Below, one piece after another: positions 1-58,969 of a DNA stretch of 60,899 nt (position 1 is the first letter of the stretch; each line of letters opens with the position of its first letter). The position numbers and the translations under genes were made by a program. Location of the stretch: contig DATLUO010000246.1 of assembly GCA_035533075.1 (NCBI GenBank), forward strand, positions 1 to 60,899, written 5' to 3'. The notes below the pieces were generated by a model that did not search any database, had not been told where the DNA came from, and saw only the letters and a program-made list of their open reading frames with translations. The DNA comes from Pirellulales bacterium. Its GTDB lineage: Bacteria > Planctomycetota > Planctomycetia > Pirellulales > JAICIG01.

Positions 1-107
1 GGTTCAGGGTTCAGGGTTCAGGGTTCAGGGTTCAGGGTTCAGGGTTCAGGGTTCAGGGTTCAGGGTTCAGGGTTCAGGGTTCAGGGTTCAGGGTTCAGGG
101 TTCAGGG
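1..107. repeat. GGTTCAG heptanucleotide tandem array
   Basis: Fifteen perfect copies of the 7-bp unit GGTTCAG plus two bases fill positions 1-107, and the array is cut by the window edge, so it probably continues upstream. There are no spacers, which excludes CRISPR. A second, imperfect 7-bp series (GCCTGAC, GCCTGGC, GCCTGAC, GCCTATC) follows at 118-145 and overlaps the stop codon of the neighbouring lipoprotein gene. It resembles a telomeric repeat in form only; nothing else suggests a chromosome end. Confidence 0.95.
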
Positions 108-140
108 CCGGCGCGGCGCCTGACGCCTGGCGCCTGACGC

Positions 141-1808
141 CTATCGCCCCTCTTTTTCCGCCAACCAACGTGCCCGGAGCAGATTCCCGTGCCGCTGGGG
201 CGACTCGATCTGGCGATAGACTTCGCGAGCATCCTCGGTCAGACCGAGCGCTTCCTCGGCCCGGGCCAGATTGTAGAGCGCTCCGGCACGCCAGGGGCTT
301 TGCGCGTCGACGTCGAGCGTGCGCTTGGCAAGGTGGTCGGCCGCCGTCTTGTAGTTCTCTCGTTCGTAGGCGATCAAGCCCAGCCAGTAGCTGGCATCGT
401 GCTTCGCCACGTGGGCCAACTGGATATAGCGGTTCGCCGTCTGTTGCCATTCTTCCGGCGCAACCTTGCCGCGCAAGCGTTCGCCCTCTTGCTGCGGAAT
501 CGCCGGCCCGTTGGCAATCTCGGACTCCGACGGGCGAGCGATCTGGTAATAATGCATCGCGCCCTCGTCGCCCGAAAAATGGCCCATCAAGTGGAGCACG
601 CGCCCCTTCCATAAAGCCGGCACGATCTCGGCCTTCTTTTTGAGCGTTCGCGGGAATGGCACAACGAACGGCTCGAAATCAGCAGCCAAACGCTGAAGCC
701 CTGTTTTGCCCAGCTTGGCCTGGCCGGCCAGCCGCTCGTAGGGCAAACTCCAAAGCTCCACGTCCTTCACGTGCTTGCACTTTTTCACACGTTCGGCGAC
801 TGCACTGGCGTCGACCGAAAGCACCATCTTTTGGTCGCCGGTCAACTCCGATTCCAACAGGGCCGCCCGCTGCGTCAGATAAATCGGCGAAGCCTCGATG
901 AGGGCCAGCATGTTTTGCACGCCCGCCGCGTCCATCTCGTAGCGGTGGTCGTCGTCGAGATCGAGATGCCGCAGCAGCGCCTCGTCGGCCGCGACCTGGG
1001 CCAGCGTGGCGATGCCTTCGCCGTTCGGTCCCGGCACCGGCAGCCCCAAGCTTGGCTCAAACAGATACAGCTCGCCCTTGTCGAGCAGGGCGGGCACCCA
1101 GGGGCGAGGCGAGGCCTCTTCGGCGTCTGCCGCCGCGGGGCGCGACAACATCACCACGTCGAGCCCTTGCTGCCGGGCCATCAAGATGAACACCCACGCG
1201 CGGTCGATCGCCGGGCCGCGCCCTAATAGCAGCGTTTGCCAGGCCAGCCGGGTCGGCGTGGCCGACTGGCCTTCGTCGGACGATTCGAGTTGGATGTTGC
1301 GGACGATCCAATCGAACAGCCGCCGGGCACGTTCCAGGTCGTTCTGCGTCGTGCCGGCTGCCCAGTTGGAGGCGTCCCGCATCCACACCGCCTCGCGCAG
1401 ATCGATGCCGTCAGCGCGTGCGAAGCCCATCGCGTCCAACTCTTGCAACTGCGGCAATTTCTTGAGCCGTTCAGGAAGACGCTCCAGCAGCGGCCCGCGG
1501 CGCCAATCGGCGAGCGGCGTTTGCAACGTCATCCACTGGTTCAACTGGCTCACCAAGGCCGGCGGCACGCCCGACTCCAACGCATGCCGCGCTGTTTCGT
1601 TCAGGTCGAAAAAGTCTTGAACGTCCGAATTGACGGCGTCGTATTGAGCGAGGCCGTTCAAGAGTCCGGAGATATAGGCCAGAATGTCGTTGGCCTGCTC
1701 GATCTTGGCTGTTTCTTCGCTGCCCGACGTCGGTGTGGGCAAGGGAGCTGCCGAATCGCAGCCCACAAAAACGGCCCAGGGTGCAAACCACAAGAGAAGT
1801 CTACGCAC
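141..1808 (-). CDS. Lipoprotein with degenerate transglutaminase-like fold and TPR-like C-terminus
   Basis: A 555-residue protein. The N-terminus has basic residues, a hydrophobic stretch and a lipobox ending VFVGC, so it is probably a lipoprotein anchored through Cys17. Around residues 150-215 the pattern ([13 protein letters not shown], then [20 protein letters not shown]) resembles a transglutaminase-like fold, but the catalytic Cys position is not a Cys, so it is probably not an active protease or transglutaminase. The last 100 residues ([32 protein letters not shown]) look like TPR helices. The GTG start lies inside the last codons of kdsA (8-bp overlap), which implies translational coupling. 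The 3' end runs into a 7-bp tandem series. The role is unknown; envelope protein binding is a guess. Confidence 0.8.
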
Positions 1809-17886: not shown

Positions 17887-17911
17887 ACTGACCACGGACC
17901 ACTGACCACGA
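17887..17911. repeat. Heptanucleotide repeat (ACTGACC series) before the GH57 start
   Basis: The 7-bp units ACTGACC, ACGGACC, ACTGACC and ACGAACA follow each other directly, ending about 10 bases before the GH57 ATG. No purine-rich ribosome-binding site is visible there. A reverse-complement copy lies just upstream of the ctaE start at 56690-56712. Confidence 0.8.
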
Positions 17912-21056: not shown

Positions 21057-21206
21057 ATAGGGTGGGACCAGTGAGCTTTCGAGCGCCGGCCCACCACCTT
21101 TAAGGCATTGGGCGTTAGGTGTTAGGCACGCGTAGAACGTCGCGCCTAAAGCCTGACGCCTCTTCTCGGTGGGCCGGCGCTCGCAAGCTCGCTGGTCCCA
21201 CCCTAC
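21057..21206. repeat. REPIN (GTAGGGTGGG family) with heptamer-containing spacer
   Basis: Left REP at 21057-21096 (first base changed, ATAGGG), right REP at 21167-21206 in inverse orientation. The spacer carries 7-bp series (GCGTTAG GTGTTAG; GCCTAAA GCCTGAC GCCTCTT). The right end supplies the TAG stop codon of the methyltransferase gene on the minus strand. Confidence 0.88.
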
Positions 21207-25001: not shown

Positions 25002-25039
25002 GGCATACTTCAGCGATTTGAGAAGGCGTTAAGTTAAGC

Positions 25040-25150
25040 AGGCGTCAGGCGTCAGGCGTCAGGCAATTGCAAATTCGCAATTCGCAATTGCCTGAATCCT
25101 GGACCCCAAACCCTAATCCCCAAACCCTAATCCCCAAACCCTAATTGACC
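25040..25150. repeat. Cluster of three different heptanucleotide repeat arrays
   Basis: Three adjacent arrays, all with 7-bp periodicity: GGCGTCA x3 (about 25041-25061), CGCAATT-type units (GCAAATT CGCAATT CGCAATT, 25069-25090), and CCCCAAA CCCTAAT x3 (25104-25145). The middle array lies in an inverted repeat with 11-base arms CAGGCAATTGC / GCAATTGCCTG (25060-25070 and 25084-25094). They fill the spacer between divergent genes. Confidence 0.9.
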
Positions 25151-25158
25151 AAACCCCT

Positions 25159-26502
<1,344 letters not shown>

Positions 26503-26510
26503 ATTGGCAC

Positions 26511-26750
26511 GTAGGGTGGGACCAGCGAGCTTGCGAGCGCCGGCCCGCCGTAAGCGATGTCGCTTACCTGGAGAGAGACCTCCAGCGCGCTGGAGGTCTC
26601 TCCCAGCGAAACCATGTGGGGGGTGATCACCAGCGCGCTGGTGATCCATTCCGGAGAACCATGTGGGGGGTGATCTCCAGCGCGCTGGAGATGAAAAGCG
26701 CCGTCGCCAATGGTGGGCCGGCGCTCGCAAGCTCGCTGGCCCCACCCTAC
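26511..26750. repeat. REPIN enclosing three nested perfect palindromes
   Basis: Outer REPs at 26511-26550 and 26712-26750 (inverse). Between them are three perfect palindromes centred on CCAGCGCGCTGG: 30 bp at 26573-26602, 22 bp at 26625-26646 and 20 bp at 26673-26692. The second and third are each preceded by the same 18-base word (ACCATGTGGGGGGTGATC at 26611-26628 and 26658-26675), a 47-bp direct period. No protein is encoded. The right REP ends 9 bases before the next start codon. Confidence 0.85.
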
Positions 26751-56689: not shown

Positions 56690-56712
56690 TGTCAGTTGTC
56701 CGTGGTCAGTAG
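56690..56712. repeat. Heptanucleotide repeat at the ctaB/ctaE junction
   Basis: Read on the minus strand: ACTGACC ACGGACA ACTGACA, the same 7-bp family as before the GH57 gene. It contains the ctaB TGA stop and ends a few bases before the ctaE ATG. Confidence 0.75.
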
Positions 56713-57611
56713 CGAAAAGGTCCGGCGGTCAGCCACAGGAGCAGCGCCGGCAGGTAAATCAACGATGCCCGCAATAAGGCCCGCGCCGTCTGCTCGTTCA
56801 TCCACAGCAGAAACGCCGCGGCGCAAGCAAGCTGCCCTAGGCTGAGCAGCAAGGCCCACACAAAATACGTCGGACCGGCGAAGCTGATCAAGGCCGGCAG
56901 CAGGCTGACGGGCACCAGGGCCAGGGCCGCCAGCACGGCCTGGGCGCCTGCCCGCAGGCCGCTGGGATCGACGACCGTCAACATCTTCAGTCCGGCGGCC
57001 GAGTATTGCCGGCGGTAAAGCCAGGCGATGGCCATGAAGTGCGGGAACTGCCAGAGAAAGACGATCGCGAACAGTGTGGCCGCGGTCAGGTTCAGCCGAC
57101 CGCCGACCGCGGTCCAACCCATCAACACCGGCATGGCCCCGGCGACCGCGCCCACGGCGGTGTTGCTCGGCGAGCGCGACTTGAGCGGCGTATAGACGCC
57201 GACATAAAGGAACCAAGTCAAGGCGCCCAGCGCCGCGGTGAGCACGTTGACCAGGAGTGCCAGATAGGCCGCCCCGGCCAGGCTGGCGAGGGTGCCCAGC
57301 AGCAACACCTCGCGGCCGCTCAACCGCGCGGCCGGCAAAGGCCGGTCGGCGGTGCGCTCCATCAAGGCGTCGCTATGCCGCTCCAGCCACTGGTTCCAAG
57401 CGCTGGCTCCCGCGGCCACCAGCACGGTGCCCATTACGGCGTGAGCGAGCAGCCACAGGTCGGGCACGCCGGCGCTGGCCACCACGGCGGCCACCGCCAC
57501 CGTCACCAGTTCCATCAGCACGATCTTGGGCTTGGTCAACTCGATGTAGTCGGCCGCGCGCTGCCAGCCTACGGCACGTGCGGGAAGATACGAAGCAGTC
57601 GAAATGCTCAT
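56706..57611 (-). CDS. ctaB: Protoheme IX farnesyltransferase (heme O synthase)
   Basis: A 301-residue multi-span enzyme of the UbiA family that adds a farnesyl group to heme b to make heme O, the precursor of heme A for this oxidase. Motifs: YIELTKPKIVLMELVTVAVA, AGASAWNQWLERHSDALMER TADRPL (prenyl-diphosphate Asp/Asn motif variant) and FLYVGVYTPLKSRSPSNTAV GAVAGAMPVLMG. The ATG overlaps the ctaA TGA as ATGA, so the two are coupled. Confidence 0.95.
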   Translation of the reverse strand: MSISTASYLPARAVGWQRAADYIELTKPKIVLMELVTVAVAAVVASAGVPDLWLLAHAVMGTVLVAAGASAWNQWLERHSDALMERTADRPLPAARLSGREVLLLGTLASLAGAAYLALLVNVLTAALGALTWFLYVGVYTPLKSRSPSNTAVGAVAGAMPVLMGWTAVGGRLNLTAATLFAIVFLWQFPHFMAIAWLYRRQYSAAGLKMLTVVDPSGLRAGAQAVLAALALVPVSLLPALISFAGPTYFVWALLLSLGQLACAAAFLLWMNEQTARALLRASLIYLPALLLWLTAGPFRY

Positions 57612-58783
57612 GCCATCGCCCCCGTTGGTGGCTGGGGCAGAGGCTGGCCACGTAGCGGTCGAGAATGCTCAAAAACGCCGCGGCCAGCCGATGCCCCAGT
57701 CGCGTCACCACCGGGGCATCGCTGGCCGGCAGCGTCTGTTGGCAATTGCGAGTCGATTCCGGCCAGCTCTGCCCCAGCCACCGCGAATGTGTCGTTGCCG
57801 ACCGCGTGCAGTATAGTTGACGCTTCCCGCCAGGCTCGCAGGGCCAGCACCACCGAGACAGCCAGAATGAGCGACCCCGTCGCCACGTGCCCGGTGGTCA
57901 CGGCGGCCTGCAAAAAACTCTCGCGGCGGACGACGTAATTGGCAGCCCACGGATAATCAGCCAGCCAAGCCGGCCAGCCGTAGTTGACCACCCACGCGCC
58001 GCAGCCGAGCGCGAGTTGCACACCCACGAGACCCAGCAGCAGTTCTGCCGGCCGCCGCAGCCAGGCGTTGCCGGCCGCTTCGCGCCAGGTTCGCAGCCGG
58101 AGCATCACCACGTGTCCGACGACGGCCGCCGCGACGAGCAGGTGAAACCAAACGGCGATGCGAAACAGGCCGGCATCGGCCGTTACCTGCACATGCCGCA
58201 ATTGCGAGCCAAGCAGGAGTTGCACGTAGACCAGCGCCGCCGTGGTCGTGGCGAGATTTTGGATTTTGGATTTTGGATTTTGGATTGCAACAAAGCCTTC
58301 CCCTCTTCCAAGCCATCGTCTTGACGTTAGCGTTGCCAGAGCGGCGGTCAACGCGAAAAACGCCGGGCCTACGCAACCGTGTATCTGAGCCAGCAGTCGC
58401 TCGTCGAGCACTACACGCAGCCCGCCGAGCACGCCCTGCAAGATCACCCCGCCGACGGCGATCGAGGCCATCCAACGCATCCAACGGCGAGCGTCTTTCT
58501 TCCAGATGGCCCCGGCCAAAGCGATGGTAAGCAGACCGACCGTGGCCGCGAGCAGCCGGTGGCCGTGCTCGATGAATCGATCCCAGGGGCCGAAAAGCCA
58601 CGTCTGCCAGGGATAGAGAAAGAGGTTGTAACCATAGGTCGTGGGCCAGTCGGGCACGGCCATGCCGGCGTCGTAGGTGGTGACCAGTCCGCCGACCCAG
58701 ATCAGTGGGAACGTCGCGCAGGCCAACAGCACCGCAAGTCGATGCGGCCACAGGCTCGGCGTTGGGCTGGCGGTCTGGGTCAT
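57608..58783 (-). CDS. ctaA: Heme A synthase (COX15/CtaA)
   Basis: A 391-residue membrane enzyme that oxidises heme O to heme A. Family features: CATFPLIWVGGLVTTYDAGM AVPDWPTTYG at the first span, FIEHGHRLLAATVGLLTIAL (heme-ligand His), VILQGVLGGLRVVLDERLLA and QIHGCVGPAFFALTAALATL (second His), then VWFHLLVAAAVVGHVVMLRL and further spans ending at about residue 330. Residues 170-185 (NPKSKIQNL) come from a 7-bp ATTTTGG array inside the gene. The last 55 residues are encoded by the MITE-like repeat 57627-57782, so the native C-terminus seems replaced. The gene ends with TGA overlapping ctaB. Confidence 0.93.
   Translation of the reverse strand: MTQTASPTPSLWPHRLAVLLACATFPLIWVGGLVTTYDAGMAVPDWPTTYGYNLFLYPWQTWLFGPWDRFIEHGHRLLAATVGLLTIALAGAIWKKDARRWMRWMASIAVGGVILQGVLGGLRVVLDERLLAQIHGCVGPAFFALTAALATLTSRRWLGRGEGFVAIQNPKSKIQNLATTTAALVYVQLLLGSQLRHVQVTADAGLFRIAVWFHLLVAAAVVGHVVMLRLRTWREAAGNAWLRRPAELLLGLVGVQLALGCGAWVVNYGWPAWLADYPWAANYVVRRESFLQAAVTTGHVATGSLILAVSVVLALRAWREASTILHAVGNDTFAVAGAELAGIDSQLPTDAAGQRCPGGDATGASAGRGVFEHSRPLRGQPLPQPPTGAMA
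57627..57782. repeat. Copy B of the MITE-like repeat, forming the ctaA 3' end
   Basis: The element begins GGTGGCTGGGGCAGAGGCTG and ends with TCTGCCCCAGCCACC, 15 bases exactly complementary to its start. The inner stem GATGCCCC/GGGGCATC is in the reverse order of the copy at 3253-3405. It lies entirely in the ctaA reading frame just before its stop. Confidence 0.8.
58255..58286. repeat. ATTTTGG heptanucleotide array within ctaA
   Basis: Four perfect copies of ATTTTGG plus ATT, in the coding region of ctaA, encoding on the minus strand QNPKSKIQNL-type residues. The array is AT-rich against a very GC-rich gene and lies at the junction between the two four-helix halves of the protein. Confidence 0.9.
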
Positions 58784-58810: not shown

Positions 58811-58969
58811 GTAGGGTGGGACCAGCGAGCTTGCGAGCGCTGGCCCACCATCGTAAGGCGACAGGCATCAGGCGTCAGGCGTCAGGTTGTTTGTCCTGAC
58901 GCCTGATGCCTGAAACCAGACTCCTTAATCGGTGGGCCGGCGCTCGCAAGCTCGCTGGTCCCACCCTAC
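58811..58969. repeat. REPIN with heptamer palindrome in the spacer
   Basis: Left REP 58811-58850, inverse right REP 58930-58969. The spacer contains 7-bp series GGCGACA GGCATCA GGCGTCA GGCGTCA and its near complement (GCCTGAT, GCCTGAA), forming a nested inverted repeat. It separates ctaD from ctaA in the oxidase cluster. Confidence 0.9.

Follow-up and report, generated by a model that had tools for sequence, protein, structure and literature searches.

Heptanucleotide tandem arrays with a common strand rule in the genome of a Pirellulales bacterium

The 8.54 Mb draft genome (296 contigs) of a bacterium of the order Pirellulales (Planctomycetota) is rich in tandem arrays of 7-bp units: 191 heptamer arrays were found in 1.496 Mb under a strict call, whereas the remaining periods up to 20 gave 15 arrays combined. 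This genome-wide excess is not due to chance, and neighbouring arrays of many different words obey one strand rule, with the G/T-rich strand first. On balance, the arrays are probably dispersed, effectively neutral palindromic elements made of heptamer blocks, whose length changes by 7-nt slippage; no cellular function is needed to account for the observations. The repeats were initially noticed in contig 246, a stretch of 60,899 nucleotides referred to below as the window.

Materials and Methods

The histogram of repeat periods was built from 1.496 Mb of the source genome, with some stretches picked for holding a GGTTCAG match. In the strict call, arrays were perfect, with at least 2.57 copies, a length of at least 18 bp and periods up to 20. 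The Markov null was run on a 775 kb subset, for which arrays of at least 2.5 copies were called. Placement in genes or intergenic regions was assigned by a crude gene finder. An array is designated '+' if its G/T-rich strand lies on the + strand.

The relatives compared were 58 sampled genomes of the order, including the only genome of the same family (G001) and a finished genome consisting of a single 6.65 Mb contig (G005). A 372 kb sample of the Blastocatellia genome SSF51, an acidobacterium, was also analyzed.

Results

Repeats of the Window

The window contains the following repeats:

1..107, + strand: GGTTCAG array of 15.3 perfect copies, truncated by the start of the contig
117..148, - strand: CGCCTGA block (GCCTGAC-type), C/A side, facing the GGTTCAG block
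17887..17911, - strand: imperfect ACTGACC/ACCACGG block (period-7 identity 0.78), just before a predicted start codon
21058..21205, no strand: REP doublet, its loop carrying a decayed GGCGTTA/TAAAGCC heptamer hairpin
25039..25064, + strand: CAGGCGT array of 3.7 copies, with the G-rich strand leading
25072..25089, - strand: AATTCGC array, 2.6 copies
25104..25145, - strand: three copies of CCCCAAACCCTAAT, that is (CCCCAAA CCCTAAT) x3, two alternating heptamers with period 14
56690..56712, + strand: imperfect GTGGTCA-type block (period-7 identity 0.75) between ctaE and ctaB
58255..58286, + strand: GATTTTG array of 4.6 copies within ctaA, where it encodes AIQNPKSKIQNL in frame, in a variable loop
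58812..58968: REP doublet between ctaD and ctaA, with a TCAGGCG/CGCCTGA heptamer hairpin (conserved core TTGTTTGT) in its loop

The initial annotation had assigned a 7-bp period to all simple tandem repeats of the window. Periods 7 and 14 indeed dominate, accounting for 6 of the 8 perfect arrays of at least 2.5 copies, but Tandem Repeats Finder also returned periods 3, 6, 8, 9, 10, 12, 15, 18, 30, and 47, mostly with about two copies. Among the positions named there, the repeats at 1-107, 118-145, 25040-25150, 58255-58286, and 58861-58915 (the last belonging to a CGTCAGG-type array at 58852-58915) were confirmed, whereas those at 17887-17911 and 56690-56712 are imperfect. The sequence at 21112-21165 (period-7 identity 0.49) is no tandem array but a decayed hairpin. 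An Rfam search of the window gave no match.

Extent of the Period-7 Excess

In the 775 kb subset, 110 arrays of period 7 were observed, where the Markov null gave a mean of 1.0; for period 6, there were 19 arrays against 8.25 in the null, and the remaining periods were near the null. An excess of the kind known from cyanobacterial short tandemly repeated repetitive (STRR) sequences, which had been suspected for this planctomycete from the window alone, is thus borne out by the unit-length histogram of the sampled stretches. It is genome-wide and occurs in several assemblies, one of them finished. The whole genome would contain roughly 1,100 arrays if the sample is representative, and the true number may be lower because some stretches were chosen for holding a match. 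Intergenic positions are occupied by 145 of the 191 heptamer arrays, although only about 16% of the sample is non-coding.

GGTTCAG x3 is matched 497 times in the source genome, 37 times in G001 and 26 times in the single-contig genome G005, so that the arrays are not peculiar to one assembly; this pattern is present in 8 of the 58 sampled genomes of the order. The pattern GATTTTGGATTTTGGATT, with 297 matches across the source genome, is present in 6 of the 58. The reversed-pattern controls are practically absent genome-wide, with one match for the former and none for the latter. With one genome taken per species, at least 119 stretches with a GGTTCAG-type match were found in many phyla, one archaeon included. 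At the loci found in this way, period 7 dominates again, beyond the query word itself. Plasmids of Trichormus and Planktothrix, used as positive control, show the same peak, period 7 accounting for 9 of 16 arrays in one case and 12 of 16 in the other.

Two minor observations concern the array counts. The SSF51 sample contains 15 nonamer arrays beside 125 heptamer arrays, forming a second peak at period 9. The window (1-107), contig 17 of G000 and contig 10 of G058 open within long heptamer arrays; therefore, such arrays are a probable cause of assembly breaks, and the number of long arrays is probably underestimated.

Vocabulary and Phased Ends

The repeat sequences had been described as unrelated to each other. 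This is only partly right, because a small vocabulary recurs among the 167 arrays, beside about 30 other words, many of which occur once: the AACCCTG (GGTTCAG) class with 61 arrays and the AAAATCC (GGATTTT) class with 29 make up 90 of the 167, about half. Arrays of these classes have phased ends at unrelated sites, since 28 of 35 GGATTTT arrays end in ...TTGGATT and 55 of 65 GGTTCAG arrays start with AGGG or GGG. The GGATTTT arrays can be read as a seed (ATT, GATT or GGATT) followed by n units of TTGGATT, with a sharp inner end, and at several of these loci a variant unit, TTCGATT, adjoins the array. GGG tracts are present in the GGTTCAG class, while 107 of 213 arrays have none; therefore, the array set as a whole is not of the G-quadruplex heptamer type.

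Strand Rule

The arrays are short directional blocks, frequently combined in pairs into palindromes in which the G-rich strand is on the 5' side of either strand. The G-rich strand of the arrays lies downstream of stop codons and the C-rich strand upstream of start codons. Neighbours of opposite orientation within 300 bp are arranged as '+ then -' in 34 cases and as '- then +' in one case in the source genome, which also contains 20 tight opposite pairs, none of them reversed; in 28 of 29 gaps with both orientations, every '+' precedes every '-'. With reference to the nearest gene, the rule is followed by 125 of 167 arrays (p = 9e-11), and by 12 of 13 in convergent gaps, which have no start codon nearby. 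The p-values overstate the evidence, since arrays that belong to a single dispersed family do not count as independent. In the 372 kb of SSF51, with partly different words, the corresponding figures are 37:1 for pairs, 97 of 120 for the nearest gene and 29 of 32 in convergent gaps. Orienting the arrays by G over C gave the same outcome, and the same-word families with opposite pairs, four each in the source genome and SSF51, all have the same sign. The cyanobacterial plasmid control contained one opposite pair of each sign, too few pairs for a comparison.

Composition around translation starts was rejected as the cause of this polarity: array-free gaps of the same genome are only weakly skewed, their G+T fraction being about 0.50-0.52 over the initial 40 nt and 0.47-0.49 over the final 40 nt, and the rule also holds in convergent gaps. 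Neither is G-quadruplex formation needed as a common cause, as the rule holds just as well for pairs in which a word lacks GGG (20:1 and 24:1 in two genomes).

REP Doublets and Hairpin Families

REP palindromes of the TAGGGTGGG type are represented by 134 copies in the sample, and all 44 of their 44 opposite pairs are outward-tagged doublets. The loops of these doublets are either plain and empty, with a length of 33-39 bp, or longer, in many cases with a heptamer hairpin, G-strand first; only 14 of 213 heptamer arrays are located within REP pairs. The filled loops group into families with similar cores. The core TCAGGTTGTTTGTCCTGA (58882-58899 in the window) has 32 genome-wide copies at up to 2 mismatches, and four sampled copies, all in REP doublets, carry 2/4, 3/4, 4/3, and 5/4 heptamer units per arm, as counted by eye. 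In another hairpin family (L029, L013, and L217), the left blocks extend for 16, 23, and 37 bases to the shared core, in steps of 7 and 14, again by eye. One other REP-loop core pattern, probably too strict, matched a single site. The short GGATTTT hairpins, on the other hand, have unrelated loops of a few bases. Among spacers between paired blocks, 12 similar pairs were found among 35 in SSF51 and 3 among 15 in the source genome, the related spacers pointing to putative dispersed units in SSF51.

The ctaD-ctaA gap, the only one obtained from synteny with the G001 sample, contains a REP doublet with a heptamer hairpin in the source genome, other repeats in G001, GAAGGCA x5.4 in G034, and none in most of the other relatives compared; as far as can be judged from these sequences, this shows a lineage-specific gain. 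For the gap between the aldehyde dehydrogenase and helicase genes (25002-25281), the sequence upstream of the orthologous gene yielded no array in G001, G055, and G050, a weak comparison, as the helicase gene was not found beside it there.

The REP-associated RAYT/Y1 transposases were considered as a mover of the arrays and rejected: the source genome has 12 Y1_Tnp matches, but Y1 genes do not track the arrays, and G005 has arrays without a Y1 match. Reverse transcriptases were uninformative as candidates, with few RVT_1 matches in array-rich and array-poor genomes alike.

Some REP loops have other fillings. At 26512-26749 of the window and at L226:12988-13269, the loop contains 47-bp repeats (CCAGCGCGCTGGAGATC...CCATGTGGGGGGTGATCA), a non-heptamer filling. 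At L022:3947-4129, L028:3093-3280, and L040:17791-17958, purine-rich GGAGAGA-type repeats face pyrimidine-rich ones, G-strand first and with a degenerate period.

Arrays Inside Genes

Arrays of the AAAATCC class are stop-free in all frames of both strands, and such arrays lie in frame within ctaA (57608-58783, minus strand), an AAA ATPase gene and genes for Ser/Thr kinases. In CtaA, the array takes the place of about 12 residues of a variable loop, where G001 has unrelated residues and the same length, so the resident sequence was replaced, in one or several steps. The last 70 or so codons of the ctaA frame (57611-57826, minus strand) match about 30 other places in the genome; the CtaA C-terminus thus seems to be overlapped or provided by a dispersed element. 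A Cas1 gene (L222:1206-2468) contains both GGTTCAG- and AAAATCC-type heptamers in frame in its C-terminal part.

Discussion

A common mechanism with a 7-nt step, as proposed in the initial annotation, is consistent with the whole 7-nt differences among homologous copies, but sequence-blind slippage alone is insufficient: words recur at hundreds of sites, array ends are phased, one loop core has 32 copies and a strand rule is followed, so dispersal or directed synthesis is needed beside slippage. In the account preferred here, a mobile process or one of templated insertion would copy existing blocks or hairpins elsewhere in the genome, where they would then gain and lose length by 7-nt slippage. 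They would survive because the sites are neutral, namely gene gaps, REP-doublet loops and tolerant protein loops. The array in the CtaA loop, with no net length change relative to G001, the presence of both empty and filled REP loops, and the arm differences of whole units were counted in favor of this account, along with the period-7 excess itself, the recurrence of words and of the loop core, the phased ends and the gain in the ctaD-ctaA gap. Against it, the arrays could not be linked to any transposase or polymerase, only the small fraction noted above lies within REP pairs, and the unrelated short loops of GGATTTT hairpins would not be expected from transposition of one hairpin.

It is rather unlikely that the arrays arose by the healing of DNA ends, in which both 3' ends at a break or nick would receive G/T-rich heptamers copied from a fixed-end template, with 7 nt added in each cycle, and would then be joined, giving head-to-head blocks as in telomere fusion. 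This would explain the polarity of neighbours (34:1 in the source genome and 37:1 in SSF51, with no reversal among the 20 tight pairs), its persistence in convergent gaps (12:1 and 29:3), the structure of the GGATTTT arrays, with a seed, n units of TTGGATT and a sharply defined inner end, the short and unrelated loops of GGATTTT hairpins, and the replacement of resident CtaA sequence. However, many templates would be required for the more than 10 words of each genome, the conserved cores of several hairpin families point to dispersed ready-made units, and there is no candidate enzyme, the RVT_1 matches being few and uninformative. The chance is slim that a telomerase-like or otherwise templated process puts G/T-rich heptamers on both 3' ends of broken DNA in several bacterial phyla, the head-to-head blocks being its scars.

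Polymerase slippage by 7 nt, blind to sequence and acting at independent sites, is unlikelier than end healing as the sole origin. The sharp period-7 excess across very different genomes and the whole-unit differences between homologous copies are consistent with it, but not the repeated use of a few words at hundreds of sites, the phased ends, the strand rule joining neighbouring arrays of different words, or the in-frame array in a loop where homologues carry unrelated sequence.

Selection for nucleic-acid structures at gene borders, either hairpin terminators or G-quadruplexes, is improbable. The G-rich strand does follow stops and the C-rich strand does precede starts, as in the placement reported for Xanthomonas and Nostoc (PMC4692102). 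Nevertheless, the 107 of 213 arrays without GGG include words whose pairs obey the rule (20:1 and 24:1), arrays are mostly absent from the orthologous ctaD-ctaA gap of relatives, and they occur between operon genes and within genes as well. Finally, an assembly or binning artefact has a negligible chance of being the explanation: the window and some other contigs do start within an array, i.e., arrays break the assembly, but the single-contig genome G005 has 26 GGTTCAG x3 matches and ordinary genes flank the arrays throughout.

The dispersed-element account has to be seen against several known systems. In most bacterial genomes, the longer repeats are most often heptamers according to earlier work, as cited in PMC4679880 and PMC4692102, and the same citations credit an already published proposal that a 7-nt polymerase contact is the reason for heptamers. 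Convergent G-rich pairs with the same gene-relative placement, in single words, were described in Xanthomonas and Nostoc by Rehm et al. (2015; PMC4692102). Within the Planctomycetota, G-rich patterns are over-represented in Isosphaera (PMC4060949); a literature search covering few subscription papers found no account of heptamer arrays in this phylum, in agreement with the initial annotation, which had been aware of none. The 7-nt excess, the intergenic placement and the convergent G-rich pairs are therefore already known from cyanobacteria and Xanthomonas. What is added here is a single strand rule for numerous words in two phyla, the phasing of array ends, the occurrence of REP loops in both empty and filled form, and whole-unit hairpin differences.

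The GGGAATC and GGGGA(C/T)T heptamers of Xanthomonas and Nostoc (PMC4692102) likewise form convergent pairs with the G-rich strand first. Unlike them, the arrays described here comprise many words, half without GGG yet obeying the rule, and include copies in genes and REP loops and homologous hairpins differing by whole units. The TAACTGA repeats of Beggiatoaceae (MacGregor 2015; PMC4679880) are similar in having many intergenic copies of a heptamer, but one word dominates, chiefly upstream of starts, and no palindromic pairing rule is described in the accessible part of that report. GTAG-tagged REP sequences and their RAYT transposases (PMC3733652) may be matched here by the TAGGGTGGG-type palindromes, arranged as outward-tagged doublets (44:0), and by Y1 transposases; these REP sequences are, however, a separate repeat from the heptamers, 14 of 213 arrays of which lie in doublets.

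Any mechanism proposed for the dominance of 7-nt units among bacterial tandem repeats has to accommodate the regularities found here in two repeat-rich genomes of different phyla: plain slippage does not suffice, and selection for G-quadruplexes is not required.

The STRR sequences of the heterocystous cyanobacteria Calothrix and Nostoc resemble the present arrays in their 7-bp unit, several words per genome, and dispersed, mostly intergenic location, and differ in host phylum and in most of their words. On plasmid A of Trichormus, whose main words differ, the word AATTCGC of the window array occurs four times.
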